A DNA stretch of 64,000 nt from Methanofollis ethanolicus (GTDB lineage Archaea > Halobacteriota > Methanomicrobia > Methanomicrobiales > Methanofollaceae): NCBI RefSeq assembly GCF_001571385.1, contig NZ_BCNW01000001.1, positions 1,984,001 through 2,048,000 of the forward strand, in the 5' to 3' direction. The notes under the pieces were generated by a model. The model was not told where the DNA came from. It did no database searches and saw only the letters and a program-made list of their open reading frames with translations. A program made the position numbers and the translations under genes. Within the stretch, counting starts at the first letter, position 1, and the number at the start of each line of letters is the position of its first letter. Shown piece after piece: positions 1,426-34,419 of the stretch.

Positions 1426-2841
1426 TTATATAGTGATCACATTGCAATTTATAAAATTTTTCTCTGACCCTATCACCGACACATTCGCGACCTTCACACG
1501 TCCCCGATTCTCCGCCAGGTTGACGATACCCGGATCATACCCCGAGATCACGCTGTCCCTGACAAAAATTCCGTCCGGGTTTCGTGCCAGTGCATTCACG
1601 GTAATCCCGGCAGCAGGGCGCAGGGTCTGGGAATGGATCGCCATATCCTCCAGGGTGACGTTCAGTGTCGGCCCGGTCCAGACATAGACCGGTTCAACGG
1701 TGTCCTCGGTGGCGCATGAGCGCAGGTGCAGACCTTTTTCTCCGATGGTCAGCATCAAAAAACCCTTCTCCGACCCCCTATCAAGACAATTGACAAGGTA
1801 ACTGTCATCGACCCTGGAACAGTGAAAGCCTGCGGTATTGTTTTCAGAGGTACAGTTTTCAAGGTACATCCCCTCATTCACCAGAAATCCTGCACCGAAG
1901 TCCACCTCTTCTCCACCAATCTTCTGTTTCTGGGCATTATCACTGCTGGTACAGTTTATGAGTCTTATATTGGTAAGAAGGACGTGAGATTCGGCATGAA
2001 ACCCTGACTCCCAGCATCCTTCGGCATGGCAGTCGATATATGAGATATTGTCCGCGCTCTGGAGAGACTCGGCGATATCGAAACCCACGTCCCAGGCCTC
2101 GCCGTACTGGTGGTCGACACCATAGTACTGGTCATACCGGCCGCAGTTGATCGCCTGACAGTTCGTATAGGTGCAGTCCCGCACAATGTTCGGTTTTCCC
2201 TCACCAGAGTGGACAAAACCCCATCGGTCGACGTCTACGGCCCTGCAATTGACGAAGGTGACATTTTCGATCACTTCATTGGCCGCGTAGATCATGAATG
2301 CCGCAATATAGGAGTTGTCCACATGGAAGACCTCCACGTCCTCGACATCAACATCTGACGTGCTGATATAGACACTGCCCTTGCCTGTGATCCCGAAGTT
2401 CGAGAGGCGTATGTCCTTCCCGGAGTTCATCCTGACCGAGCCTGCAGAGAGGAAGTTCAGGACTGTCATGTCCGGGCCCTGCCCCATGAGTGTGGAGTTA
2501 TTCGCGGGGTCGAACGAGTCAGTGCAGTAAAATGTGCCGTCCATCAGGACGACCGTGCCTCCTTTCGGAGGGAGAGCGCGGAATGCGGCAGCGATCTCTT
2601 TTTGATCGTCCTGGCCGTCGCAGACAAAGTCAGGGGGGTATGGCGTCTTCACCGCGCTTGTTTGTGAGGCAACAATAACGACCGGCCCAGCAGGCCATGG
2701 AGGACGTTCGGGTTCGGGGGTGACGTTCTCGTCGACGCGGGGAGGAACAGGAGCCTGAAAAATTATAACGGCAATACCTGTCAGAACAAGGATGAATGCC
2801 ACCGCCAGAATAATTATCCTTCGTTTATCCGCAGATATCAA
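1426..2841 (-). CDS. Membrane-anchored parallel beta-helix protein
   Basis: This 471-aa protein has a short basic N-terminus and a single hydrophobic segment at about residues 9-28, followed by a Pro-rich linker (residues ~30-50). It is therefore probably anchored with the bulk outside the cell. The PPDFVCDGQDDQKEI motif near residue 68 marks the start of the beta-helix fold, and the rest consists of short Asn/Val-rich strands separated by Cys-containing turns (IENVTFVNCRAVDVDRWGF). It closely resembles the truncated protein at 1-1008, which carries a cleavable signal instead of an anchor. It is divergent from the glycosyltransferase at 3125. A structural or carbohydrate-active role in the cell envelope is inferred from fold and context only. 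Confidence 0.85.
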   Translation of the reverse strand: MISADKRRIIILAVAFILVLTGIAVIIFQAPVPPRVDENVTPEPERPPWPAGPVVIVASQTSAVKTPYPPDFVCDGQDDQKEIAAAFRALPPKGGTVVLMDGTFYCTDSFDPANNSTLMGQGPDMTVLNFLSAGSVRMNSGKDIRLSNFGITGKGSVYISTSDVDVEDVEVFHVDNSYIAAFMIYAANEVIENVTFVNCRAVDVDRWGFVHSGEGKPNIVRDCTYTNCQAINCGRYDQYYGVDHQYGEAWDVGFDIAESLQSADNISYIDCHAEGCWESGFHAESHVLLTNIRLINCTSSDNAQKQKIGGEEVDFGAGFLVNEGMYLENCTSENNTAGFHCSRVDDSYLVNCLDRGSEKGFLMLTIGEKGLHLRSCATEDTVEPVYVWTGPTLNVTLEDMAIHSQTLRPAAGITVNALARNPDGIFVRDSVISGYDPGIVNLAENRGRVKVANVSVIGSEKNFINCNVITI

Positions 2842-3091
2842 CTGTTTTCACTCCTTTGAGAAGGACAAACGGTACGAACTGACAGACCCGGAAAAGTTTC
2901 CGATCCCCCATTACGACCGGGAGATCCTCCGACACTCTTGCCCCATTTCATCAGCAGGCAGACTCCACTATTATGCTGGTCAATTAAGAACCTTTCGTTC
3001 ATTTTTTTCGAGCCCCGGTGCAGTATACCAATCAATCGCCCTGTCGGAGATACGCAAAGGAGTCGACCCTGGCGCTCCCCCTCCGGAGGTA

Positions 3092-3099
3092 TCTTTATA
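3092..3099 (+). promoter_or_regulatory. TATA box for the glycosyltransferase gene
   Basis: CTTTATAT lies about 28-30 nt before the ATG at 3125. This spacing fits a leaderless or nearly leaderless archaeal transcript. It is the main reason for preferring the internal start over the longer open frame upstream, whose extra residues look non-coding. Confidence 0.6.
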
Positions 3100-3124
3100 T
3101 CCGGATGTGCACTTACAGCGTGTG

Positions 3125-4357
3125 ATGCCGGGAGATGGGAGCGGCCTGGATATTTTGTTCATAGAACCTTTGAAATCATTCGAAGGTGCCAACGGGAAAG
3201 TAACTCACAGTTGCGAACTCATCGACGGACTTGCAGCCCGACACAACAGGCTCCATATCTTTTCGACCGTCGACCGACCCTTTGTGCATACGGACAAAAT
3301 CATCTGCTCTCCCATACCTGACCGGGGCAATCTTCGACTGTACGGAAGTATTGTCAGGTCCCTTCTTCGCAAGGGTTCTTCCCGGAGATATGACGTCATC
3401 TATACCAGAAACTCGTTTTTCGGGGTTCTGGGAGACCTGTTTTTCGGAAGGATCCATGGCACGCCGATCATATGCGAGGTCAACGGCTTTTTCGGAGACG
3501 AGATCAGACTTATCGACGACAATCACTCTTCATCATTCATTGCCGCATGGATGAACCAGACCCTCTGTACCGTCTCCGAACTGTACCTGCTCAAGAGAGC
3601 CGATGCGATCATCGCCGTGACGGCGGGGATAAAGCGCCACCTGATCGAAGAGTACGGGGTGGACGAAAAAAAGATCACCGTCATCGAAAACGGGGCGAAC
3701 ACCGGGATCTTCAGGCCCGGCGACCAGGAAGAGGCGCGAAATAAGCTGGGCCTGGACATCTCGGCAAGATATGTCTGTTTCACCGGCAATTTTGCCCCCT
3801 GGCAGGGCCTGCCCGACCTGATCAGGTCCATTCCCCTGATCCGCGACACCTGCCCGGCAGCCCGCTTCCTGCTTGTCGGCGACGGCGTGATGAGAAAACA
3901 GTGTGTCGCCCTGGCAGACGAACTTGGAGTCGGCGATAGAATCTGCTTCACCGGGAGGGTGGCCTATGAGAGCGTACCCGACTATGTCACTGCCAGCGAT
4001 GTCTGCGTCGCACCGTTTATCAGGGATAGAAATGACAAAATCGGTCTTTCTCCCCTGAAAGTTTATGAATACATGGGGTGCGGAAAACCTGTCGTGGCAA
4101 GCGACATCGCAGGTGTCAGAGAACTGCTCGACCTTTCAGGAGGGGGCATCCCGGTCAGACCTGAGGACCCGCAGGCCATCGCTTCGGCTGTTACGATGCT
4201 CCTGGTCGACCGCGAGAAGCGGATGCAGATGGGGAGGGCCGGGTGCGAGTATGTCCGAAAAAACAACAGCTGGGAGGTCGTCGCCCGGAAGGTCGGAGAG
4301 GTCTGCTCGGAGGTCGCGTCACGTCAGTCTCAGAATGGCCGGGGACACCGACGATAA
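3125..4357 (+). CDS. Glycosyltransferase family 4
   Basis: The 410-aa product begins MPGDGSGLDILFIEPLKS. It has the two Rossmann-like halves of a GT-B enzyme. The C-terminal half contains the family signatures: ENGANTGIFRPG near residue 190, FTGNFAPWQGLPDLI, and the E-x7-E region SPLKVYEYMGCGKPVVASD at about 305-325, which binds the nucleotide sugar. The product should transfer a sugar from a nucleotide donor to a glycan or lipid acceptor on the cytoplasmic side. The frame is open for another 111 codons upstream, but those codons show no family resemblance and a TATA box sits just before this ATG. Neighbours (beta-helix proteins, AsnB-like proteins, deacetylase) suggest surface polysaccharide work. 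Confidence 0.9.
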   Translation: MPGDGSGLDILFIEPLKSFEGANGKVTHSCELIDGLAARHNRLHIFSTVDRPFVHTDKIICSPIPDRGNLRLYGSIVRSLLRKGSSRRYDVIYTRNSFFGVLGDLFFGRIHGTPIICEVNGFFGDEIRLIDDNHSSSFIAAWMNQTLCTVSELYLLKRADAIIAVTAGIKRHLIEEYGVDEKKITVIENGANTGIFRPGDQEEARNKLGLDISARYVCFTGNFAPWQGLPDLIRSIPLIRDTCPAARFLLVGDGVMRKQCVALADELGVGDRICFTGRVAYESVPDYVTASDVCVAPFIRDRNDKIGLSPLKVYEYMGCGKPVVASDIAGVRELLDLSGGGIPVRPEDPQAIASAVTMLLVDREKRMQMGRAGCEYVRKNNSWEVVARKVGEVCSEVASRQSQNGRGHRR

Positions 4358-4866: not shown

Positions 4867-4885
4867 GGCGGCGAAAGGTGCCGCC
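4867..4885 (+). terminator. GC hairpin upstream of the asnB-like promoter
   Basis: GGCGGC (4867-4872) and GCCGCC (4880-4885) form a perfect 6-bp stem with a 7-nt loop. It lies just before a TATA-like CATAAATAA at about 4896-4904. It may end transcripts or serve as a regulatory palindrome; there is no strong T-run after it. Confidence 0.3.
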
Positions 4886-4895
4886 AGCGAAAGTC

Positions 4896-4904
4896 ATAAA
4901 TAAA
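4896..4904 (+). promoter_or_regulatory. Candidate TATA box of the first AsnB-like gene
   Basis: CATAAATAA is the best TATA-like sequence before the gene at 5150. Initiation about 25 nt downstream (near 4922-4928) would give a leader of more than 200 nt, which is unusually long for an archaeon. The leader would contain the structured segment at 4949-4997. Confidence 0.4.
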
Positions 4905-4948
4905 GCATTGCTATAGGCAGTACAAATCGGGGGAGACAGAAGAGGTAC

Positions 4949-4997
4949 ATGCCTGTTTGCGCGGATAGCGCGTCATGCCGATCAGGCGTACAGGCAT
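4949..4997 (+). ncRNA. Possible structured leader RNA (three-way junction)
   Basis: ATGCCTGT (4949-4956) pairs perfectly with ACAGGCAT (4990-4997). Inside are two more helices: GCGC/GCGC (4959-4962 with 4968-4971, loop GGATA) and ATGCC/GGCGT (4975-4979 with 4985-4989, loop GATCA). Together they form a compact three-way junction in the putative leader of the AsnB-like gene. I do not recognise a riboswitch family. A 21-codon frame also starts at 4949, so the region could alternatively encode a leader peptide. Confidence 0.35.
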
Positions 4998-5149: not shown

Positions 5150-6916
5150 ATGCAGGTAAAAATTCGCCTATCCAATCGGTTTTCACCGTGGAGACGTATC
5201 GAGACGGATAACGCGGATTGCTATATCAAAGGCCACATATTCGTCGACAACATCCTGACAGACGACGAAGACCTGGCATCATATCTCTCGGGGGAGGTGT
5301 CTCTGTCTGTCAGAGACAGCGATGATATCGCAGGACTCTTCAGTCACCTGAACGGAGAATATGCGGTTGTCGTCGATGCACCTGACTGCGTGCTCTGCGC
5401 CGTCGACAGGGTCAGGAGCATCCCCCTCTTTTATTCCCGGACTCAGGGAGGCCTCCTCGTCGCCGACGAGGCGCAGGCCCTGAAACAGTCGGTGCATGCG
5501 GTGCCCGACGACATACGGGCGGCCGAATTTCTCGTGACCGGATTTGTCACCGGCAGAGACACTCTCCTTGACGGGATTGAACAGATACAGGCAGGAGAGT
5601 TTCTTCTGCATGATAAGATCACGGGAAAAACCGACCTCTCTCCCCATTACAGGTACGGACACGGGGACTTTTTTCCGGTCTCCGAAGAGGATATGATCGA
5701 GCGCCTGGACCAGGTCTGCACGAACGTCTTCGCCCGCCTCATCACGACCACCGTTGACCAGGGGAAACATATCGTCGTCCCCTTAAGCGGCGGACTCGAC
5801 TCACGAGTCCTTGTGACACTACTCAAACATCTTGGAGTTGAGGACGTGACCTGCTTTACGTACGGGATCAGGAACAATCGGGAGTCGCGGTTCAGCCGGG
5901 AGGTGGCCGCTGCACTGGGGTACCCCTGGCATTTCATCGAATATACCCCGGCAAAGTGGGCCGATCTGTACCGTTCGCCTGAGCTGGCAGAAGCGCTCAT
6001 GTACAGCGGAAACTTCACGTCTCTCCCTCATATCCAGGACATGCCCGCCGTCAGGGAACTGAAAGAACGTGGGATCGTACCTGACGGATCGGTCTTTGTC
6101 CCTGGTCACGGGGCCGACGTGCTCTCCGGGTGTAAATTACCCCGGTCCTACGATGTCAGGCAGGGGTGCACCCCCGAAGAGGCCGTGCGCTATGTCCTCG
6201 CCGACCACCATTCCTACTGGGACATAGGTAATGACGAACCCCTCAGGAAGATCTTTGAAGAGAGAGTCCGGTCTCTCTCCCCTGCGGTCCACAGGGACGA
6301 CAGGGAGTCGGGAGCCAACGCCATCGAATACTATGATTACAGGGAGAGACAGGCGAAATATATCATCAACTCAGTCAGGACGTACGAATATTACGGATAT
6401 GAGTGGCGGACCCCCTTCTGGGACAACGAATTCATGGAATTCTTCATGAAGGTCCCCCTGCAGTACAGGATGAAGCAGAGACTGTACATACGTTTCGCGC
6501 GGGAGAAGGTCTTCTCGGGCGACCTGAAAAAGTTAAAATCTATTGAGTGTACGACCCGAATCAGCGATTCCCTCTCTCAGAGGTGGATGTCGGCACAGAA
6601 CAAACTCAGACGGGTCTACGACCGTATCGCGGACAGGGGGATCTATGCTCTGTGGTACCGGGACCTCCGGCCCCTCCTGCTCAAAAAGAATGCTCTTATG
6701 ACAGATATCAGCGGCAGCAGGTACCCTCACGTCAGGACGATGGTGATGCAGAGCAGGTATGATCCGTCTGCATTAACAATCATCAGCCTTCTGAACCTTG
6801 AATATCTCCTGCAATATGGAGATATTCCGCGTCTTGACGAAGGAAACCTGAAAAGCAAAAAAGAATGTATCTGGGAAGTCGGCATTCCCGAATACTCCAG
6901 AGAGACCCCTCGATAA
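5150..6916 (+). CDS. Asparagine synthetase-like protein (AsnB family), first copy
   Basis: The 588-aa product has an N-terminal glutaminase-like (Ntn) domain of about 190 residues and a C-terminal ATP-pyrophosphatase domain. The P-loop is SGGLDSR at about residues 213-219. A VFVPGHGADVLSG stretch replaces the classical SGEGADE region. The catalytic Cys normally at position 2 is absent (the protein starts MQVKIR), so it probably does not use glutamine as classical AsnB does; free ammonia or an amine substrate is more likely. ATP-dependent amide or amidine formation through an acyl-adenylate is known for the family. The substrate here is unknown: an envelope sugar acid or a peptide are both possible. 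A paralogue lies at 8310, with a radical SAM gene between them. Confidence 0.85.
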   Translation: MQVKIRLSNRFSPWRRIETDNADCYIKGHIFVDNILTDDEDLASYLSGEVSLSVRDSDDIAGLFSHLNGEYAVVVDAPDCVLCAVDRVRSIPLFYSRTQGGLLVADEAQALKQSVHAVPDDIRAAEFLVTGFVTGRDTLLDGIEQIQAGEFLLHDKITGKTDLSPHYRYGHGDFFPVSEEDMIERLDQVCTNVFARLITTTVDQGKHIVVPLSGGLDSRVLVTLLKHLGVEDVTCFTYGIRNNRESRFSREVAAALGYPWHFIEYTPAKWADLYRSPELAEALMYSGNFTSLPHIQDMPAVRELKERGIVPDGSVFVPGHGADVLSGCKLPRSYDVRQGCTPEEAVRYVLADHHSYWDIGNDEPLRKIFEERVRSLSPAVHRDDRESGANAIEYYDYRERQAKYIINSVRTYEYYGYEWRTPFWDNEFMEFFMKVPLQYRMKQRLYIRFAREKVFSGDLKKLKSIECTTRISDSLSQRWMSAQNKLRRVYDRIADRGIYALWYRDLRPLLLKKNALMTDISGSRYPHVRTMVMQSRYDPSALTIISLLNLEYLLQYGDIPRLDEGNLKSKKECIWEVGIPEYSRETPR

Positions 6917-6924
6917 TTTCCCGT

Positions 6925-6932
6925 CTTTTTTT
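6925..6932 (+). terminator. T-rich terminator
   Basis: A C followed by seven T residues lies 9 nt after the stop codon at 6916. It fits the U-rich termination signals of archaea. The TATA box of the next gene follows directly. Confidence 0.45.
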
Positions 6933-6939
6933 CATCAAG

Positions 6940-6955
6940 GATAAATATATATATT
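6940..6955 (+). promoter_or_regulatory. Strong TATA box before the radical SAM gene
   Basis: An A/T-only run (AAATATATATATT) lies immediately before the first in-frame ATG at 6959. Initiation 25 nt downstream would leave that ATG outside the transcript, so an internal start near 7004 is favoured. Confidence 0.6.
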
Positions 6956-7003
6956 GTAATGGATATGGTATGGTCGGGGGGGCACGTGGCATACTTATCA
7001 GAC

Positions 7004-8143
7004 ATGATGCAGGTCCCGGATTCTTCAGGATATAACGAAGCACTCCGACGGGTTCAGGACCTGGCCAGGAAAGTACGGGGCCATGAGACGATTAAAACAG
7101 ATCATATTGATTACTCACTTCCGATCGGGACCGACGAGAGAGTCGGTCACATGGACGGGAAACCCTGCAGGCGCCTTGTGATTTTTCTTCGGTCGACAGG
7201 GTGCGAATGGGTCCGGGAAAGTGGCGGGTGCACGATGTGCGGTTTTTACTGCAGCACCAACCAGGGGGTCAAGGTCTCGGACGAGGACTATATCAACCAG
7301 ATCGAGCATGTCGCCGATACCGTGGACCTGAACGACTACCCGGTCGTCGCATTATACAATGACGGCAACTTCCTTGACGAGAGGGAGATCTCATTCGAAG
7401 CCCAGAAAAAGATTTCGTCCGTCCTCAACAGTTTTCCGGGCATCCGGAGAGTGGTCATTGAGTCCCGGATAAATGACGACTCCATTGAAATGGCACAGCG
7501 GATTAAAAAATATCTCCCGGATAAGGAACTGGAAATATTGTTCGGGTTCGAGTCGGCCAATCCCGAGGTCATGAACCTCTGCATCAACAAGGGCTTTACC
7601 GCCCGGAACTATGACCATTATCTTGCAAAGATGAAAGGTTCCGGTGTGTCCTTCAAACCGCTTCTCCTGCTGAAACCCCCCTTCTTAACCGAGCAGGAGG
7701 CCGTCTCCGATGTGGTCGCGACAGTCGGGTACCTGTATGCCCGAGGCATCCGCAGGGTGGACCTCGAAGTCACGACGGTCGAGAGGAACACGGTCGTTCA
7801 CGAACTCTGGAAGAAGGGCCTCTACTCCCCGCCCATGTTATGGAGCGTTCTCGAAGTGATACGGCAGTATAAGGGGATGTACGGGGAGGGGATGGACATG
7901 TACATCAGCCCGTCCCAGTATTCGGTTCAGTCGCTGGACGTCGCCAGAAATTGCGGGACATGCGACAGGGAGATCCTTGAACGGATCGACATGCATAATC
8001 TGGATTTCAACACGGAGGTCTTTGACGGTCTCGACTGTGATTGCAAACATACCAGGTGGGCGGATAGGATGGGTGAGCAGGACCCGCGTGGCATCCCGGA
8101 GAGGGTGATAGGCCAGTTAAATATGCTGGACACTCCGGATTAA
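7004..8143 (+). CDS. Radical SAM protein, RaSEA/Elp3-like
   Basis: About 379 aa from the ATG at 7004; the frame also allows 6959, but the TATA box abuts that codon. Cys67, Cys76 and Cys79 (GCEWVRESGGCTMCGFYC) form a C-X8-C-X2-C cluster ligand set as in RaSEA, the archaeosine synthase partner, and related TIGR01210-type proteins. FGFESANPEVM and SFKPLLLLKPPFLTE follow the RaSEA pattern. RaSEA is known to act with ArcS on preQ0-modified tRNA. However, this copy sits between two AsnB-like genes in a surface locus, so it could be a paralogue with another substrate. The C-terminus is Cys-rich (NCGTCDREIL, DCDCKHTRW), possibly a second metal site. Confidence 0.85.
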   Translation: MMQVPDSSGYNEALRRVQDLARKVRGHETIKTDHIDYSLPIGTDERVGHMDGKPCRRLVIFLRSTGCEWVRESGGCTMCGFYCSTNQGVKVSDEDYINQIEHVADTVDLNDYPVVALYNDGNFLDEREISFEAQKKISSVLNSFPGIRRVVIESRINDDSIEMAQRIKKYLPDKELEILFGFESANPEVMNLCINKGFTARNYDHYLAKMKGSGVSFKPLLLLKPPFLTEQEAVSDVVATVGYLYARGIRRVDLEVTTVERNTVVHELWKKGLYSPPMLWSVLEVIRQYKGMYGEGMDMYISPSQYSVQSLDVARNCGTCDREILERIDMHNLDFNTEVFDGLDCDCKHTRWADRMGEQDPRGIPERVIGQLNMLDTPD

Positions 8144-8180
8144 TATTTTAATGGTTTTACACCGCTTTCACTACGAAAAT

Positions 8181-8238
8181 CTGCCTTCCGAAGATGATTG
8201 TCGATGACACGACGGGAACACCAGTTCAGCGAAGGCAG
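8181..8238 (+). ncRNA. Second possible three-way-junction RNA
   Basis: CTGCCTTC (8181-8188) pairs perfectly with GAAGGCAG (8231-8238). Inside are GTCG/CGAC (8200-8203 with 8210-8213) and GAAC/GTTC (8216-8219 with 8224-8227). The layout resembles 4949-4997 but the primary sequence differs. It lies after the radical SAM stop codon and before the TATA box at 8248, so it may be a 3' UTR or terminator structure rather than a leader. Confidence 0.3.
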
Positions 8239-8247
8239 GAAGAAAAT

Positions 8248-8256
8248 ACATTTATA
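8248..8256 (+). promoter_or_regulatory. TATA box of the second AsnB-like gene
   Basis: CATTTATAG lies about 60 nt before the ATG at 8310. Initiation near 8280 gives a leader of about 30 nt with a GGAGAG ribosome-binding site at 8300-8305. Confidence 0.5.
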
Positions 8257-8309
8257 GCATCACGCGGACGTGACATCGATAGATCCGAGATTTCTAGGAC
8301 GGAGAGCGC

Positions 8310-10028
8310 ATGCATCTGGAACTATACCTGAATAATCCCTATTACCCATGGAAACAGGCAGAATCCTGGGGGTTCCATTGCTATTACAAGGGGACATTTT
8401 TTCGGGGGACCGATGTCCTGTCTGACCCTGAGGTGGTCGGGGAGGTCATGGGGCAGGGTTCCGGCGTCCCCGAAGTCGACCGCCTCAGGGAGATCGCGGC
8501 CAGAACCATCGGCGAGTTCTGCATCGTCATCGAAACGGACGACCGCCTCTTCTGTATATCTGACCGGATACGGAGTGTCCCTCTCTTCTATGCCATAGAC
8601 CAGGACCGCATCATCGTCTCGGACGATGCGAACATCATCAGGTCTGCCCTGCACCCGGCACTGGACCCGGAGAGTGCAGCGGAGTTTCTGGTAACAGGGT
8701 ACGTGACCGGCGAAGGCACGCTTTTTCAGGGCCTGAGGCAGACGAATGCAGGTGAGATCCTCGTCCTGAATAAGAGAACGGGATCGGTCCATACGACCCC
8801 CTACTATCGGTACCTTCATGGCGACTACTACCAGGAGGACGGGACAGCATTGATGCATGCCCTGGACACGATCCTGTACCGGGTCTTCACGAGGCTGATG
8901 GCATCCACTGCCGAAAGAGGGCAACAGATTGTCGTTCCTTTGAGCGGCGGACTCGATTCGCGGATCATCGCCGCAATGCTCCGAATGGTGGGGGCGAAAG
9001 ATGTTGTCTGCTATAATTACGGGCACCCCATCAACAGGGAGAGCAGAGCAAGCCAGAAAGTGGCGGAGGCACTGGGGTACCCCTGGCATTTCATCGAGTA
9101 CACGCAGGACGCCTGGGAAGAGTGCTACACATCCCCTGAGATGAGGACGTACCAGAAATATAGCGGAAACCTGGCGTCGCAACCTCATATTCAGGATTTT
9201 TTTGCCGTGCATACGCTGAAAAAAGAGGGCATTGTCCGGGACAATGCGGTCTTTGTGCCGGGGCACGCGGGAGATATGCTCAGCGGGTCGCATATCCCGG
9301 CATCGTACCGGAAAGACGGGGAATATTCGCAGGAAAAAGTCATAGACGATCTTCTCACAAAACATTACTCCCTGCTGGGCTGGAACCACAATGGTCTGCG
9401 ATCCCTCTATTCACAGAAGATTGCACGGGGGTGTGGGGATATCAGGGTCCACGACAATGACTCCTGTGCAAACGCCCTTGAATATTTTGATTTCTACGAA
9501 CGCCAGGCAAAGTTCATCGTAAACGCGGTTCGTGTGTACGAATTTTTCGGCTATTCCTGGAGTTTGCCCTTCTGGGATGCCGAGTTGATCGATTTTTACC
9601 TGCATGTGCCCCTGTACCACCGCATCGGACAGAAATTGTACAAGAGGTATGCCAGAGAGAGATTGTTTGTCGGAAAATATGAGGGACTTCGCAAGATAGA
9701 GTGCACAAGCAGATTTGAGACACCACTGAACAATTTTCTCTCAGATGCGAGGCGCGGGCCGTCCTTCCTCATGCACCTCCTCTCTACAGGGGGACAAAAA
9801 ACATCATGGTACAACAAAATCCTTGCCATGCTGGAAGAAAACCGCCTGCCCCTCCCGGAGGTGCTGATGCACTACCCCCCCCTTGTCTCACTGGTCGGCC
9901 AGGAAAGCGCTGTCCCCGAGATCAGACTGAACGGCCTTATCATACAAAATTATCTGAGTCTGATCATCCCTGACGACGGGATCCAGGGATCCTGCCCTGT
10001 GGCCGGAGAGGTTCGGATCGAGCAATAA
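8310..10028 (+). CDS. Asparagine synthetase-like protein (AsnB family), second copy
   Basis: The 572-aa product is a paralogue of the protein at 5150. The two share the N-terminal half (DRIRSVPLFY against DRVRSIPLFY; AAEFLVTGYVTG against AAEFLVTGFVTG), the P-loop SGGLDSR at 212-218, ALGYPWHFIEYT and VFVPGHAGDMLSG. Like the first copy it lacks Cys2 (MHLELY), so the glutaminase half should be inactive or only structural. The last ~100 residues diverge, which suggests different substrates or partners. It has its own promoter. Amide-bond formation on an unidentified acid is the family-based expectation. Confidence 0.85.
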   Translation: MHLELYLNNPYYPWKQAESWGFHCYYKGTFFRGTDVLSDPEVVGEVMGQGSGVPEVDRLREIAARTIGEFCIVIETDDRLFCISDRIRSVPLFYAIDQDRIIVSDDANIIRSALHPALDPESAAEFLVTGYVTGEGTLFQGLRQTNAGEILVLNKRTGSVHTTPYYRYLHGDYYQEDGTALMHALDTILYRVFTRLMASTAERGQQIVVPLSGGLDSRIIAAMLRMVGAKDVVCYNYGHPINRESRASQKVAEALGYPWHFIEYTQDAWEECYTSPEMRTYQKYSGNLASQPHIQDFFAVHTLKKEGIVRDNAVFVPGHAGDMLSGSHIPASYRKDGEYSQEKVIDDLLTKHYSLLGWNHNGLRSLYSQKIARGCGDIRVHDNDSCANALEYFDFYERQAKFIVNAVRVYEFFGYSWSLPFWDAELIDFYLHVPLYHRIGQKLYKRYARERLFVGKYEGLRKIECTSRFETPLNNFLSDARRGPSFLMHLLSTGGQKTSWYNKILAMLEENRLPLPEVLMHYPPLVSLVGQESAVPEIRLNGLIIQNYLSLIIPDDGIQGSCPVAGEVRIEQ

Positions 10029-10799: not shown

Positions 10800-11798
10800 T
10801 CAGGTACCCATGATCGCAGAGGAGAGTTTCAGATACGCGGACTTTTTCGTCACCCCGTAATAGGGGACGAGGTTCGGACTGAAATTCTGGGTAAACTCGG
10901 CGAGATAGGGAATATTTGCCGTCATCAGGTTCATCTCGCGGTATCCCCTCTCCTTGAACTCCCGAATGGCCTCGGAGAGAAGGAGGAAGGAGGCTCCGGA
11001 AGCCTTGGACTCGTGACTGGTTGCAGCAGCCCAGCGGTAGACCCTCCGGTTGTCGAAGAGATAGAAATCCCCGCTGATCACGTCGCCGTCCGGGTTCTGC
11101 GCGGTGACCAGTTCGCAGTTCCCGCGTGCGTGGAAGGTCTCGAATATGCTGTGGAACAGGGGTTTCTGAAGGGGTGGCGCCATACCCCTGTTCTGGAAAG
11201 TACGTTCGAAGAGTTCATAGAATGTGTCGATATCTTCTGATTTTCGGATTACAATCCCAGTTTCTGTTCCTTTTTTCACATTCCTCTTTGCATTTCTCGA
11301 CAAACTGACCGCGGCCGGGTCGATATAGTACGTATACAACACATTGGTCTGCCACCCTTCCCAGATGAAGCACCTGATATCTCTCCACTCCGGAGCATTC
11401 ACAATATGAAGGCTGTCAAAATCCTCCGCATTCATATACCCGATCAGGGACCGTATCGCATCCTGCCGCTTCTGCTCGCGGGCACGGCCACTGCCCCCCT
11501 CCTGAGACAGAAAAACGATCCCGCCGTAGGGATTCATCGGCGGGATCGATGTTCCGATATGGAGGAGACCTCCGATCTGATAGAAAAAAAGAGGACAGCC
11601 TCCGATAAGTTTTCCCCCATCGAAACACCCGTAGATATTATAGTCCATCCCCCGTACACGGCTCATGACAGATAGCCACGGACTGGAATGGAATATCGAA
11701 CCCTCAGGCGCAGATCTCACGACCGCGTCCCATGCAGGGAGTTCGTCCATGCCAAGACGCCGGACCGAGATGTCAGAGATACCTGGACCACCAATCAT
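10800..11798 (-). CDS. FemAB-like / GNAT-fold acyltransferase
   Basis: The 332-aa product has the double GNAT-like layout of FemAB-family and LPG-synthase-like proteins. The N-terminal domain contains SSPWLSVMSRVRGMDYNIYG and a PMNPYGGIVF motif. The second domain contains LSRNAKRNVKKGTETGIVIR, where basic residues follow the conserved serine, and RWAAATSHESKASGASFLLL, a typical substrate-site sequence. Bacterial homologues add amino acids to peptidoglycan bridges. Methanogens of this group have no murein, so aminoacylation or acylation of a surface glycan is likelier. It overlaps the deacetylase gene upstream by 26 nt, which indicates co-translation. Confidence 0.8.
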   Translation of the reverse strand: MIGGPGISDISVRRLGMDELPAWDAVVRSAPEGSIFHSSPWLSVMSRVRGMDYNIYGCFDGGKLIGGCPLFFYQIGGLLHIGTSIPPMNPYGGIVFLSQEGGSGRAREQKRQDAIRSLIGYMNAEDFDSLHIVNAPEWRDIRCFIWEGWQTNVLYTYYIDPAAVSLSRNAKRNVKKGTETGIVIRKSEDIDTFYELFERTFQNRGMAPPLQKPLFHSIFETFHARGNCELVTAQNPDGDVISGDFYLFDNRRVYRWAAATSHESKASGASFLLLSEAIREFKERGYREMNLMTANIPYLAEFTQNFSPNLVPYYGVTKKSAYLKLSSAIMGT

Positions 11799-12798
11799 AA
11801 AGCTCCTTGCCAGATGTCATCCACGCACCTTCCTTTGAACAATAATCCAGCATTCTTTTATACAGTTTCAGATAGTCCCCTGACATGCAGTTGTTATGCC
11901 AGAGGACATTGAGAACGCCGTGGCACTGCTTCACATTCTCAATAATCTGCCGGGTCAGCTCCCACGAGAGGTCCAGGTCAAGATGCATGTAGTAAAAGAG
12001 CGTCTTGTCCATGATCGCGAGAGGGATCTCGACGATGTCCATCGGCCGGTTATTCCTGAGGTCAAACGGTTTGTACGGATAACACATCCCATTTCTGAAA
12101 CCAGCGCAATCAGCAAATCCCATCGTCGAATCATACTGAAAACCGGCCTTTGAGAGATATTCCCAGGTCTCAGGCACTTTAATCTTGAGATAGTGGTTCC
12201 GATAACCAACCACCGGTTCGTTCAGCAATTTTTCCAGCCGTCTTTTTTTCTCCCTGATATCGTCGGGATTATTATAGGTCTGGTGGCCCCCATGGAGGCC
12301 GACCTCATGTCCCTGGTCCACGATCATGCCCAGATCCGGCCCCAGGTCTTCGATGTCATAGGCATAATCCTCGCTGTCAGGATCCAGAACAAGAAAGAAA
12401 AAGGTTGATCTGGCACCATAGTCCTGTTCCATCGCGATAATGTCCTGAAAATTGCACCAGGGTAACCTCTTCGTCTTCATCTGCACCAGGGACCGTTTCG
12501 CATCAGAGAAACGACCGTCGCGGAGGGCATTGAATGCTTTCACCCCTTTGCCATGGAGAGAACTGTACACAGTATCGATATCATGTGTCAGGCAGAGCGC
12601 GAACTGCCTGCCGTCAGGGTACTCGGGACAGAAGCCCCGGTCGAACAGATACCGTGAGGCGACCGGTTCGAAAATATTCCGGTTCTTGCTGAGATAGAAA
12701 GGAAAACGATCGTACCGGTCGCGGAAGCCGGGAGTATATTCTTCACTCCGTGTATAGAGGGCCCAGACTTCAGGATCTTCTCTGAGTATTCCCAGCAT
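11773..12798 (-). CDS. Polysaccharide deacetylase-like protein (NodB fold)
   Basis: The 341-aa product contains the NodB signature LTHDIDTV (Asp73 and Asp75 with His72). It also has a His cluster in GHEVGLHGGH (His164, His169, His172), which should bind the catalytic divalent metal. ALCLTHD, STFFFLVLD and a C-terminal VLNVLWHNNCMSG strand complete the (beta/alpha)-barrel pattern of the carbohydrate esterase 4 family. It lacks a signal peptide, so it may act on intracellular glycan precursors or a non-glycan amide. The reading frame runs into the FemAB-like gene with 26-nt overlap. Deacetylation of a surface glycan is inferred from fold and context. Confidence 0.85.
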   Translation of the reverse strand: MLGILREDPEVWALYTRSEEYTPGFRDRYDRFPFYLSKNRNIFEPVASRYLFDRGFCPEYPDGRQFALCLTHDIDTVYSSLHGKGVKAFNALRDGRFSDAKRSLVQMKTKRLPWCNFQDIIAMEQDYGARSTFFFLVLDPDSEDYAYDIEDLGPDLGMIVDQGHEVGLHGGHQTYNNPDDIREKKRRLEKLLNEPVVGYRNHYLKIKVPETWEYLSKAGFQYDSTMGFADCAGFRNGMCYPYKPFDLRNNRPMDIVEIPLAIMDKTLFYYMHLDLDLSWELTRQIIENVKQCHGVLNVLWHNNCMSGDYLKLYKRMLDYCSKEGAWMTSGKELYDWWSRYL

Positions 12799-20152: not shown

Positions 20153-21829
20153 TTATTCTGTCCCGTGATTGGAGTTGTGCCGCTCAAGTTCGAGGTCACG
20201 CAGCACGTTCCTCCGGATCTTTCCTGAGATCGTCTTCGGGAGTTCGTCCACGAACTCGATGGCCCGCGGGTACTTGTACGGGGCGGTCGTCCGCTTCACG
20301 TACTTCTGGATGTCCTTGACAAGTGCCTCGGAAGGCTCGAAGCCGGGCGCGAGGATGACAAAGGCCTTGACAATCATGCCCCTGATGACGTCAGGCGACC
20401 CGACGACCGCGCATTCCTGAACGGCCGGGTGCTCCATCAGGGCCGACTCCACCTCGAAGGGGCCTATCCGATATCCCGAACTCTTGATCACGTCGTCGGC
20501 GCGGCCCACAAACCAGAAGTAGCCGTCTTCATCCATGTAGGCCTTGTCGCCGGTATAGTACCAGCCGTCCTGGAACGCTTCTCTGTTGGCGTCAGGGTTG
20601 CCGACGTACTCCAGGAACAGGCCTGGCGGCTTGGGTTTGCTCCAGATAGCGATCCGGCCCTCTTCGCCGACCGAGACTGGCTTGCCGTCATCATCATGGA
20701 GTTCGATCTTCCATCCGGGTACCGGTTTGCCCATGGACCCGAGCTTCGGCTCCATGTCGCTGAGCGTGCCGATGCAGAGCACCGTCTCGGTCTGGCCGTA
20801 GCCCTCATAGATCGTCAGTCCTGTCCCCTTCTCCCACACCCTGATCACCTCGGGATTCAGGGGTTCGCCGGCACTCGAACAGTGGCGCAGCTGGGAGAGG
20901 TCGAACTTGTCGAGGTCGGCGAGGATGAGCATGCGGTACACCGTCGGTGGTGCGCAGAAGGTGGTGACCTCGTACTTCTCCAAAACCGGGAGGAGTGCGG
21001 TCGCCTTGAACTTTCCGCGGATGTCATAGACAAGCGTGCAGGCCCCCTGCATCCAGGGGCCGAAGAGCTTGCCCCAGGCGCACTTGCCCCAGCCCGTATC
21101 CGCCAGGGTGAAATGGAGGTCGTTCGGCTTGATATCGAGCCAGTACTTCCCGGTGAGGACATGGCCGATCGCGTGTGCCTCGCTGTGCAGGACCATCTTC
21201 GGCTCGCCGCTCGTGCCCGAGGAGAAGAAGATGAGCATCGGGTCAGACGACTTTGTCCTCTTCATGCCCGGTAACTGGACGAGATTGGTGGAGGCCGGGG
21301 CAGGGTAGGTGAGTTCGATGGGGTAACTGAGCCATCCCGGGATCTCTCCGTCCACCACAAAGCGGGAGACAAGAGTGGGGCATTCGCTGCAGATCTCATC
21401 GACCTTCCCGGAGTTCTCGACGTCAGTGACGATCATCTTGAACTTCCCGACATTCACGCGGTACTTGAGGTCCTTCGGGGTCAGCATCGTGGGGGTGGGG
21501 CAGAAAATGGCGCCGAGCTTAATGGCTGCAATAGCAAAGATCCACCACTCAGGCACGCGGTGGAGCATAATCATGACCCGGTCCCCCTTGTTAATCCCGT
21601 ACTTCAGGAGCATGTTCGCTGCCTGGTTCGAGAGGTTCATCAGGTGGCGGAAGGTGAAGTCCTTCTCGTGCCCTTCCTGATCGGTCCAGATCATCGCAAG
21701 ACGGTTGCGATCTTTCTTTGCCCACATATCGACGACGTCAAAGCCGAAGTTGAAATACTCCGGCACCTCCTCCAGATAGGAGGAGAGGACGTCCTCGGGT
21801 TCCATTTTTGTATGCTCGGCGTCGTGCAT
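20153..21829 (-). CDS. AMP-forming acyl-CoA synthetase (medium-chain/branched type), copy 1
   Basis: The 558-aa product is an ANL-superfamily adenylating enzyme. The P-loop-like motif FFSSGTSGEPKMVLH, the A5 motif IYEGYGQTETVLCIG, and YTGDKAYMDEDGYFWFVGRADD with the hinge after it are all intact. The C-terminal LPKTISGKIRRNVLR contains the catalytic Lys. The N-terminus (EYFNFGFDVVDMWAKKDRNRLAMIW) resembles the Methanosarcina medium-chain acyl-CoA synthetase, which prefers branched short acids such as 2-methylbutyrate. It should convert such an acid, ATP and CoA to acyl-CoA, AMP and PPi. A close paralogue lies upstream on the same strand, with a repeat-bearing gap between them. Confidence 0.9.
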   Translation of the reverse strand: MHDAEHTKMEPEDVLSSYLEEVPEYFNFGFDVVDMWAKKDRNRLAMIWTDQEGHEKDFTFRHLMNLSNQAANMLLKYGINKGDRVMIMLHRVPEWWIFAIAAIKLGAIFCPTPTMLTPKDLKYRVNVGKFKMIVTDVENSGKVDEICSECPTLVSRFVVDGEIPGWLSYPIELTYPAPASTNLVQLPGMKRTKSSDPMLIFFSSGTSGEPKMVLHSEAHAIGHVLTGKYWLDIKPNDLHFTLADTGWGKCAWGKLFGPWMQGACTLVYDIRGKFKATALLPVLEKYEVTTFCAPPTVYRMLILADLDKFDLSQLRHCSSAGEPLNPEVIRVWEKGTGLTIYEGYGQTETVLCIGTLSDMEPKLGSMGKPVPGWKIELHDDDGKPVSVGEEGRIAIWSKPKPPGLFLEYVGNPDANREAFQDGWYYTGDKAYMDEDGYFWFVGRADDVIKSSGYRIGPFEVESALMEHPAVQECAVVGSPDVIRGMIVKAFVILAPGFEPSEALVKDIQKYVKRTTAPYKYPRAIEFVDELPKTISGKIRRNVLRDLELERHNSNHGTE

Positions 21830-22207: not shown

Positions 22208-23890
22208 TCAGGCCTGAGGGCCTTCATCCGTGTGGTTATTCTCGTATCTCTTCATTTCGAGCATCTTCAGTTCTTTCCGCTTGATCTTCCCGGAGATCGT
22301 CTTCGGGAGATCGTCCACGAACTCGATGGCCCGCGGGTACTTGTACGGTGCGGTCGTCCTCTTCACATACCTCTGAATGTCCTTGACCAGCGCCTCTGAA
22401 GGCTTGTATCCGGCTTTCAGCACCACGAACGCCTTGACAAGGAGGCCGCGGATGAGGTCCGGGGACCCGACGACCGCGCATTCCTGCACAGCGGGGTGCT
22501 CCATCAGGGCCGACTCCACCTCGAAGGGGCCGATCCTGTAACCCGAACTCTTGATCACGTCGTCGTCGCGGCCCACAAACCAGAAGTAACCGTCCTCGTC
22601 ATAGTAGGCACGGTCGCCGGTGTAATAAAAGCCGTTCTGGAAGGACTCCGCGTTCGCTTCCTTGTTGTCGAGGTATTCGACGATCAGGCCGGGCGGCCGC
22701 GGCTTGAGAGAGATGGCGATCCGGCCCTCCTCAAATGCTTCACAGGGCGTGCCGTTCTCGTCATGGATCTCCACATGCCAGCCGGGCGAGGGTTTGCCCA
22801 TCGAACCGAGTTTCGGTTCCAGGCATGGGAAAGTGGCGATCGCGCAGACCGTCTCGGTCTGGCCGTAGCCCTCCCTGATGGTGAGGCCTGTCCCTTCCTG
22901 CCAGATCCGGATCACTTCCGGGTTGAGGGGTTCGCCCGCGCTCGTGCAGTGACGGAGTTCACGGAGGTCGTACTTCTTGAGGTCTGCCAGGATCAGCATC
23001 CTGTAGATCGTCGGCGGGGCGCAGAACGTGGTGACCTCGTACTTCTCCAGAAGAGGCAGGATCTCGGTCGCCGAGAACTTGCCGCGGATATCGTAGACGA
23101 AGATAGCGGCACCGCAGATCCACTGCCCGAAGATCTTGCCCCACCCGCACTTCGCCCACCCGGTGTCGGAGAGGGTGAGGTGAAGGTCGTGCTCGGTGAG
23201 GTCGTGCCAGAACTTTGCGGTGACGATGTGGCCGAGGGGATGGGCGTTGTTGTGCAGCACCATCTTCGGCTCGCCGGTCGTGCCCGACGTGAAGTAGATG
23301 AGCATCGGGTCGGTGGCCCGTGTCTTCTTCGCAACCGGCATCGAGACCGTGCGGTGCGAGACCGGGGCCGGGTATATCAGTTCGTACGGGAAGTTGGCCC
23401 AGCCCTCGAGTTCGCCGTCCACCAGGAAGCGGACCTGGAGAGAGGGACACTCCCTGCAGATCTCATCGATCTTCCAGGAATTTTCGAGATCGGTGATGAC
23501 CATCTTGAAGTTCCCGGCATTGATCCGGTACTCGAGGTCCTTCGGCGTGAGGAGGGAGGGGCATGGACAGTATACGGCGCCGAGTTTGATCAGAGCAATG
23601 ACAAAGATCCACCACTCGGGGATCCGCGGGAGGAGGATGAGTACACGGTCACCCTTGTTAATCCCGTATTTGAGAAGGATATTCGCCGCCTGGTTCGAGA
23701 GGTTCATCATGTCGCGATAGGTGAACTTCCTCTCGTTGCCTTTCTGGTCAACCCAGATCATGGCCAGGCGGTTGCGGTCTTTTTTAGCCCATGCGTCAAT
23801 GACGTCGTAGCCGAAATTGAAGAATTCCGGAACGTCGATTTTAAAATTCGCATAGGTTTCTTCGTAGTTCTCCATGTTATGCTCTGCCAT
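22208..23890 (-). CDS. AMP-forming acyl-CoA synthetase (medium-chain/branched type), copy 2
   Basis: The 560-aa product shares most of its sequence with the synthetase at 20153: YFTSGTTGEPKMVLH, TIREGYGQTETVCAIA, YTGDRAYYDEDGYFWFVGRDDD, and LPKTISGKIKRKELK with the catalytic Lys. The two have similar substrate-pocket surroundings but differ in several places, including the acyl pocket region, so different chain preferences are possible. Together they suggest uptake and activation of short fatty acids for biosynthesis, for example making isoleucine or leucine from branched acids. The start ATG at 23890 lies 195 nt from the divergent small gene at 24085. Confidence 0.9.
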   Translation of the reverse strand: MAEHNMENYEETYANFKIDVPEFFNFGYDVIDAWAKKDRNRLAMIWVDQKGNERKFTYRDMMNLSNQAANILLKYGINKGDRVLILLPRIPEWWIFVIALIKLGAVYCPCPSLLTPKDLEYRINAGNFKMVITDLENSWKIDEICRECPSLQVRFLVDGELEGWANFPYELIYPAPVSHRTVSMPVAKKTRATDPMLIYFTSGTTGEPKMVLHNNAHPLGHIVTAKFWHDLTEHDLHLTLSDTGWAKCGWGKIFGQWICGAAIFVYDIRGKFSATEILPLLEKYEVTTFCAPPTIYRMLILADLKKYDLRELRHCTSAGEPLNPEVIRIWQEGTGLTIREGYGQTETVCAIATFPCLEPKLGSMGKPSPGWHVEIHDENGTPCEAFEEGRIAISLKPRPPGLIVEYLDNKEANAESFQNGFYYTGDRAYYDEDGYFWFVGRDDDVIKSSGYRIGPFEVESALMEHPAVQECAVVGSPDLIRGLLVKAFVVLKAGYKPSEALVKDIQRYVKRTTAPYKYPRAIEFVDDLPKTISGKIKRKELKMLEMKRYENNHTDEGPQA

Positions 23891-26720: not shown

Positions 26721-27317
26721 ATGGTATCTGAGGAGAGAGAGCCGATCTGGGCCGGGACGCCTCCTTTCTTTCGCCCCGAGTTCGAGGAGGCCTTCCAGTT
26801 CATCATCAGGGACTATGTTGTCCGCGGGCGTGATGTCGCCATCTTCCTCCCCTGCTCTGTCCACAAGCCGTACAGCACGAGCCCGAGCCACCGTCTCTTC
26901 GACCGCGTGATCGCCGCCTCTATCTCCGCGGAAAGGGTCCATAAGGTCGTCTTCGGCACCTGCGGGGTGGTGCCGCGGGAACTGGAGAGGATGTATCCCT
27001 ATGCCTCGTACAGGTACATGCTCGGCCGCTCTCCCGACCCGGCGGTCCACCGGTCGTTCCTGCGGATCGAGACCGTCCGCGTCGCGGCGTACCTGGAGAA
27101 GACCCGCAGCACATACAGGCACCGGGTGGCCTACTGCCTGGGCGAGTTTCGGGAGGCGATGAAGGAGGCGTCGGCCCGCACGGGCGTGCCTGTCACTCTC
27201 GTGCCATCGGACGAGACGATCGCACGGTGCAGGGATCCGGACGCGAGATTCGCCGACGGCAGTCTGAGCACGCAGGAGTACCTGGACGAGTTCGGGGCGG
27301 TGCTCAGGGGTCTGTGA
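26721..27317 (+). CDS. Stand-alone DUF5591 (ArcS-like) protein
   Basis: The 198-aa product contains PCSVHKPYSTSPSH at residues 44-57. This is the hallmark of the DUF5591 domain found in the centre of archaeosine synthase ArcS. VVFGTCGVVPRELERMYPY follows, also as in ArcS. Full ArcS adds a TGT-like part and a PUA domain, both missing here, so this is either a separate subunit or a paralogue. ArcS attaches lysine to preQ0 on tRNA; RaSEA then completes archaeosine. The RaSEA-like gene at 7004 and the divergent TrmG10 gene make a tRNA-modification role credible, but it is inferred. Confidence 0.8.
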   Translation: MVSEEREPIWAGTPPFFRPEFEEAFQFIIRDYVVRGRDVAIFLPCSVHKPYSTSPSHRLFDRVIAASISAERVHKVVFGTCGVVPRELERMYPYASYRYMLGRSPDPAVHRSFLRIETVRVAAYLEKTRSTYRHRVAYCLGEFREAMKEASARTGVPVTLVPSDETIARCRDPDARFADGSLSTQEYLDEFGAVLRGL

Positions 27318-33190: not shown

Positions 33191-33228
33191 CGGTGCGTGC
33201 GAAGGAAACCCTGACCGATACACGGATG

Positions 33229-33276
33229 CAGGCGATGAAGTCCGCCGTCAACCGCCCTCCGGGCTGATGACTTCTG
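33229..33276 (+). promoter_or_regulatory. Fluoride riboswitch 1
   Basis: GGCGATGAAGTCCGCCGTCA, followed by ACCGCCCTCCGGGCTGATGA and CTTC, follows the crcB motif. P2 is GGCG/CGCC, the pseudoknot stem is GCCC/GGGC, and P1 is GAAGTC/GACTTC. Compared with the second switch, P1 has changed on both sides (GACGTC/GACGTC), which is compensatory. It ends 16 nt before the ATG at 33292, so it may mask the ribosome-binding site. Confidence 0.85.
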
Positions 33277-33291
33277 CATGGACTCAGTCGT

Positions 33292-34190: not shown

Positions 34191-34208
34191 CGAGAAGTAC
34201 AGTTATTC

Positions 34209-34258
34209 AGGCGATGACGTCCGCCATCAACCGCCCCGTTCGGGACTGATGACGTCTA
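34209..34258 (+). promoter_or_regulatory. Fluoride riboswitch 2
   Basis: GGCGATGACGTCCGCCATCA, followed by ACCGCCCCGTTCGGGACTGA and TGACGTC, matches the fluoride-sensing crcB motif. P1 is GACGTC/GACGTC, P2 GGCG/CGCC, with a C-rich/G-rich pseudoknot stem. Some 160 nt separate it from the crcB start, enough for a termination-type expression platform. Confidence 0.9.
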
Positions 34259-34419
34259 TTTTCCGCCGGACGGACGTGCAATGCCATGGGACACCATTAC
34301 ACCTCTAGCTCTTCATGTAGCTGTGGGTCCGTCCGGCAGAGGGCGAAGGGATTCGCCCGGGTTTTAACATGACCGATCCTCATGCGGGCTGAATCTCTCC
34401 GCCCGGAGGACCACGAGAG
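34259..34419 (+). promoter_or_regulatory. Leader/expression platform of crcB
   Basis: This leader contains a CCGCCGGACGGAC segment that can pair with GTCCGTCCGGC near 34326-34336. It also contains GGGCGAAGGGATTCGCCC (34340-34357), a stable hairpin followed by GGGTTTTAAC. Such a structure could terminate transcription when fluoride is absent. Confidence 0.45.

Follow-up and report, generated by a model that had tools for sequence, protein, structure and literature searches.

A radical SAM gene lies between two AsnB-type genes without a glutaminase

The DNA analyzed here is a stretch of 64,000 nucleotides from Methanofollis ethanolicus (contig NZ_BCNW01000001.1, positions 1,984,001 to 2,048,000; hereafter the window), with a genome that groups with the genus Methanofollis. 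We focused on three plus-strand genes at 5150-10028, named here A1, R and A2. A preliminary description of this locus had proposed that two AsnB-like proteins lacking the catalytic Cys flank a RaSEA-like radical SAM protein, with FemAB-like and NodB-like genes nearby, and our analysis of the open reading frames (ORFs) and domain scores confirmed this layout. The three genes are as follows.

5150..6916, plus strand: A1, 588 amino acids, a glutaminase-less AsnB-type adenylating amide synthetase
6959..8143, plus strand: R, 394 amino acids (start codon uncertain), a radical SAM paralogue of the RaSEA family with remodelled active-site motifs
8310..10028, plus strand: A2, 572 amino acids, a second glutaminase-less AsnB-type synthetase in a clade of its own

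Gaps of 42 bases (A1-R) and 166 bases (R-A2) separate the genes, which are likely to form a single operon; R and A2 are each also preceded by TATA-like stretches.

Pfam, NCBIfam, fold search and alignment agreed on the AsnB-type identity of A1 and A2. Both proteins exceeded the Asn_synthase gathering score of 21 (73.5 bits for A1 and 47.4 for A2) and carry PLSGGLDSR, and the fold matches of their family (the A-family) to solved AsnB-type synthetase structures reached Z scores of 18.7-23.1. The SGGLDS pyrophosphate loop is kept in all 15 A-family members. When these were aligned with E. coli AsnB, Cys1, Arg49, Asn74 and Glu76 were absent from every member, the position of Asn74 being occupied by Lys throughout. 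Nearly all of them lack the first ~49 residues, with a family start that aligns close to AsnB residue 50; the loss thus extends beyond the Cys to most of the glutaminase N-terminus. All four residues are present in L010, an ordinary AsnB from the same genome. The alignment is unreliable in the part that holds the catalytic lysine of AsnB and beta-lactam synthetase. Given the loss of the glutaminase residues and of the N-terminus, A1 and A2 would not obtain nitrogen from glutamine in the usual way, and free ammonia or an amine is a possible source. A third copy (C1:2443667) lies beside genes for a flippase, CapA, an epimerase and an ATP-grasp-like protein, the last so labelled from sequence reading, with no match from the family models. 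A1, A2 and this copy belong to separate clades, and the A-family is rare, with 8 carriers among 232 genomes of the class.

R is a RaSEA paralogue with altered active-site motifs

R matched the RaSEA model TIGR01210 with 210 bits, just below the curated cut-off of 212.15. It is not the sole RaSEA of its genome, a possibility that the preliminary description had raised: a second, canonical RaSEA (C1:1526021) scored 322.3 bits with the same model, which makes R a paralogue. The genome also encodes ArcS (C1:2169705, 199 bits). In the phylum sample, R sequences scored at least 683 bits and every other sequence at most 212, while in the tree R and canonical RaSEA fall on opposite sides of a single branch (length 2.67, support 100/100). 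The orthologue of R in Methanoculleus (L086:9107-10312, minus strand) reached 235 bits and passes the RaSEA equivalog cut-off. However, a canonical RaSEA is present at another site in these genomes, and we consider such orthologues to be probably mis-annotated for this reason.

The cysteines of the radical SAM motif CX8CX2C (C82, C91 and C94) are invariant in R, C332, C335 and C362 are kept, and C360 is nearly so. The structure model assigns R to the radical SAM fold (Z up to 14.4), with lysine 2,3-aminomutase and Elp3 in the first Foldseek rows; the fold scores against various radical SAM enzymes lie close together and do not discriminate the reaction. No sequence relatives of R were found in the PDB at E values up to 1. 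We identified 18 alignment columns that are fixed in R and that hold another, nearly fixed residue in canonical RaSEA. Twelve of these map to the C-terminal ends of the predicted barrel strands (3.2 expected, p = 2.7e-6; 5.5 expected with the R-invariant columns as the reference, p = 7e-4), both p values being indicative since we chose the windows ourselves and the columns are not independent. In radical SAM enzymes, this end of the barrel is the substrate-binding side.

R is found in surface-polysaccharide clusters of two lineages

A survey of the order placed R in Methanofollis (4 of 12 genomes) and Methanoculleaceae (31 of 40) only. Canonical-level RaSEA matches were found in nearly all genomes surveyed, and no R carrier that is at least 90% complete lacked one. 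A scan across 84,980 species, each represented by a single genome, recovered R only in Methanofollis and Methanoculleus-type records, together with two canonical RaSEAs; as it used only two exact peptide patterns, distant relatives may be missed. The co-occurrence of the three genes, which the preliminary description had proposed to check, held in part. A1 and R adjoin in all four Methanofollis genomes that carry R, and only in this genus, but there is no fixed three-gene unit: A2 is absent beside R in G094, an A1 orthologue occupies a similar locus without R in G090, and no A-family gene adjoins R in Methanoculleaceae. The five Methanofollis genomes with an A1 orthologue are the same five that have the FemAB-like gene at 47% identity or more, and four of them carry R.

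To compare neighbourhoods, ORFs were called and proteins clustered in 25 regional loci and the window, most of them R loci and the rest A-family loci without R. Seventeen R loci were scored (window included), with L081 and L084, where the ORF caller did not place R, left outside. In 15 of the 17, R has a FemAB-like gene no more than 4 kb away; the other two are L078, which reaches a contig end, and L080, in which no member of the FemAB cluster was called. The FemAB-like gene is the R neighbour common to Methanofollis and Methanoculleaceae, and R is embedded in surface-polysaccharide clusters in each of them. The order in Methanoculleaceae is glycosyltransferase, UDP-GlcNAc 2-epimerase, UDP-sugar (uronic-sugar) dehydrogenase, GT4, two-domain oxidoreductase, R and then CapK-like adenylating enzymes. 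All 31 Methanoculleaceae genomes with R have the CapK-like genes, against four of the nine without R (related genomes, and thus not independent); two of those four are drafts of 80-84% completeness.

Two genes near A1-R-A2 resemble VimA and VimE of the Wbp/Vim pathway

In the window, the three genes are surrounded by the following features.

2792..4357, plus strand: GT4 glycosyltransferase upstream of A1; best NCBIfam match TIGR04063 (PEP-CTERM/XrtA-type glycosyltransferase), 158.8 bits against a cut-off of 442
4882..4955, plus strand: 74-bp conserved stretch upstream of A1, 86% kept in G094, with the TATA-like CATAAATAAAG; probably a promoter region
10800..11798, minus strand: FemAB-like/GNAT (PF13480) transferase, VimA-like, downstream of A2
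11773..12798, minus strand: NodB/CE4-type deacetylase; best NCBIfam match VimE, 113.8 bits against a cut-off of 440

The NodB-like and FemAB-like genes overlap by 26 bases. From the glycosyltransferase to the NodB gene the GC content is 0.50-0.55, compared with 0.60 for the window, and the region upstream of the window (L007) encodes further GT4 glycosyltransferases, a phosphodiesterase and a DUF2206 membrane protein. The best NCBIfam match of the FemAB-like protein was TIGR03019 (57.2 bits, cut-off 260), and A1 and A2 matched TIGR03108 among other models. In work on Porphyromonas gingivalis, VimA is noted to match TIGR03019, and AsnB-type genes adjoining VimA relatives to match TIGR03108 (PMC7468200). 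In that bacterium, the role proposed for VimE is the removal of an acetyl group and that for VimA the addition of serine, and the AsnB-type WbpS is needed for the uronamide of a uronic acid (PMC7468200).

Genes assigned at family level to a Wbp-like dehydrogenase, a UDP-GlcNAc 3-dehydrogenase-like enzyme, an aminotransferase and an acetyltransferase lie beside AglB at C1:408000-426000, which makes a di-N-acetylated uronic sugar plausible. By family, these genes are of the WbpA/B/E/D kinds, which in the Wbp/Vim pathway serve 2,3-diacetamido-uronic acid. No match to exosortase (PF09721) was found in this genome. Archaeosortase A (TIGR04125, 283.8 bits) is encoded at C1:1235861-1236625, and a link with the glycan system is possible.

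Other features were observed further along the window. A stand-alone ArcS-core-like protein of ~197 amino acids (DUF5591) is encoded at 26721-27311 on the plus strand (PF17884, 64 bits; ArcS model, 72.7 bits against a cut-off of 440), adjoining a gene for a probable THUMP/G10-type methyltransferase. The full ArcS is the one encoded at C1:2169705. Two neighbouring, similar genes at 20153-21829 and 22208-23890 (minus strand) appear acyl-CoA-synthetase-like from sequence reading, and fluoride riboswitch matches were found at 33222-33283 and 34201-34265 (plus strand; 54.8 and 46.9 bits, gathering score 34).

A model for glycan tailoring by A1, R and A2

The domain identities, the glutaminase loss, the R clade beside canonical RaSEA, its altered motifs and the glycan neighbourhoods are read from the sequence, and from these we infer all substrates and reactions. 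Our model proposes that the locus is probably a glycan-tailoring cassette, in which the substrate of R would be an aminoacyl or amide adduct instead of tRNA. An N-acetylated uronic sugar would be supplied by the Wbp-like enzymes encoded elsewhere in the genome. The NodB/VimE-like enzyme would free an amine, to which the FemAB/VimA-like enzyme would attach an amino acid. A1 and A2 would then activate the sugar carboxylate with ATP and couple it to an amine, as enzymes that lack a glutaminase have no access to the ammonia of glutamine. Finally, R, with its changed substrate pocket, would work on the aminoacyl adduct of the glycan. In Methanoculleaceae, the CapK-like adenylating enzymes could stand in for A1 and A2.

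A more specific version of the last two steps makes lysine the nitrogen donor of the glycan amide: its side-chain amine would be joined to the sugar, and R would cut the lysine C-N bond to leave a primary amide. The model for this step is RaSEA, which converts preQ0-lysine into archaeosine (G+) (PMC11298593). RaSEA itself probably does so by cleaving the lysine C-N bond. We regard this version as tentative, and doubtful as it stands.

Its main competitor, for which we also see only a limited chance, lies within the broader proposal and differs only in the reaction of R. Here, A1 and A2 would attach an amino acid to a uronic acid through a stable amide, comparable to the threonine on ManNAcA in Methanococcus N-glycans, and R would rearrange, epimerise or otherwise alter the amino acid delivered by the FemAB-like enzyme, with neither C-N cleavage nor nitrogen donation by lysine. 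It agrees with the neighbourhoods, as the FemAB-like gene and not A1 accompanies R in both lineages and G090 has A1 without R. It also has precedents in the amino-acid-modified uronic sugars of archaea (PMC2952790) and of the Wbp/Vim pathway (PMC7468200), and lysine 2,3-aminomutase heads the Foldseek rows. However, the fold scores are too close to tell the reaction, and the sole known reaction of the R family acts on a lysine adduct (PMC11298593).

The preliminary description had left the substrate open between a surface glycan, tRNA and a peptide; the glycan is by far the best backed. R could instead be a second archaeosine enzyme, the name that database models give to its Methanoculleus orthologues, and its glycan setting would then be accidental. 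The score of those orthologues above the RaSEA cut-off, the presence of ArcS and the ArcS-core-like protein 18 kb away would fit a tRNA role. Yet the well-completed R carriers all have a canonical-level RaSEA, which in this genome is accompanied by that ArcS, motifs that are invariant in RaSEA have given way to others at the active-site ends of the barrel, and the glycan neighbours of R are kept across two families; we therefore consider a tRNA substrate very unlikely. Even less probable, in our view, is a cluster for a ribosomally synthesized and post-translationally modified peptide, in which A1 and A2 would be lasso-like macrolactam cyclases and R would modify the peptide by radical chemistry. 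A1 and A2 do share the absent glutaminase with lasso-type cyclases and weakly match albusnodin/ikarugamycin and lasso cyclases, but these matches reach 20-32 bits against cut-offs of 300 and 525, and the neighbours are glycan genes. No small ORF that could encode a precursor was common to the intergenic stretches of the four A1-R loci.

Several observations weigh against the glycan-tailoring model. The altered pocket of R would equally fit another substrate or reaction, and lysine as donor is an analogy with RaSEA. The structure model of R has low confidence at residues 83-102 (the iron-sulfur loop) and 319-330, near the cluster and the pocket, and the clustering test relies on strand ends taken from this predicted model and on windows of our own choosing. 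The A1 orthologue of G090 indicates that R is not needed for A1, and A1-R adjacency is confined to four closely related genomes. The VimE, FemAB and AsnB matches are far below their curated cut-offs and thus indicate no more than the superfamily and the best match. The Wbp-like genes are ~1.57 Mb from the locus, and the role of the CapK-like enzymes in such clusters is unproven.

If the glycan-tailoring model is correct, an archaeon has redirected tRNA-modification chemistry to the decoration of surface sugars. The RaSEA family would then have, to our knowledge, its first function outside RNA, and the archaeon a glutamine-independent route to glycan amides or aminoacyl-sugars. In Methanococcus N-glycans, threonine is carried on a uronic acid, and the enzyme that adds it was unidentified as of a 2010 review (PMC2952790). 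A-family or CapK-like enzymes might be the type to look for in comparable amide-forming steps.

Comparison with known systems

R is homologous to RaSEA (TIGR01210; PMC11298593) over about 300 residues and retains several invariant residues, as well as the cysteines of the radical SAM motif and of the C-terminal part. It differs in that the RaSEA motifs KIFTSGSF, SMN.C, VQ and DPVG..RGPHNC are replaced, and in being a second copy, in a separate clade, sited in glycan clusters.

A1 and A2 resemble beta-lactam synthetase, carbapenam synthetase, lasso cyclases and TsnB9 in the SGGLDS loop and, for those with solved structures, in the two-domain fold. Beta-lactam synthetase, carbapenam synthetase and lasso cyclases also lack glutaminase activity. 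However, A1 and A2 are without ~50 residues of the N-domain, have different neighbours and have no peptide precursor. The uronamide synthetases of the WbpS type (PGN_1234; XrtA/PEP-CTERM TIGR03108) are likewise AsnB-type enzymes of polysaccharide clusters, but A1 and A2 score 40-41 bits with TIGR03108 (cut-off 817) and, having no glutaminase, would not use glutamine-derived ammonia.

The Wbp/Vim system of P. gingivalis and T. forsythia (PMC7468200) shares with our locus a NodB/CE4 deacetylase with an adjoining FemAB/GNAT transferase, an AsnB-type enzyme, the glycan cluster and Wbp-like genes in the genome. In contrast to that system, the locus described here is archaeal, its Wbp-like genes are outside the cluster and its Vim-like scores are below the family cut-offs; its AsnB-type enzymes lack the glutaminase, and a radical SAM enzyme of the RaSEA family is added.

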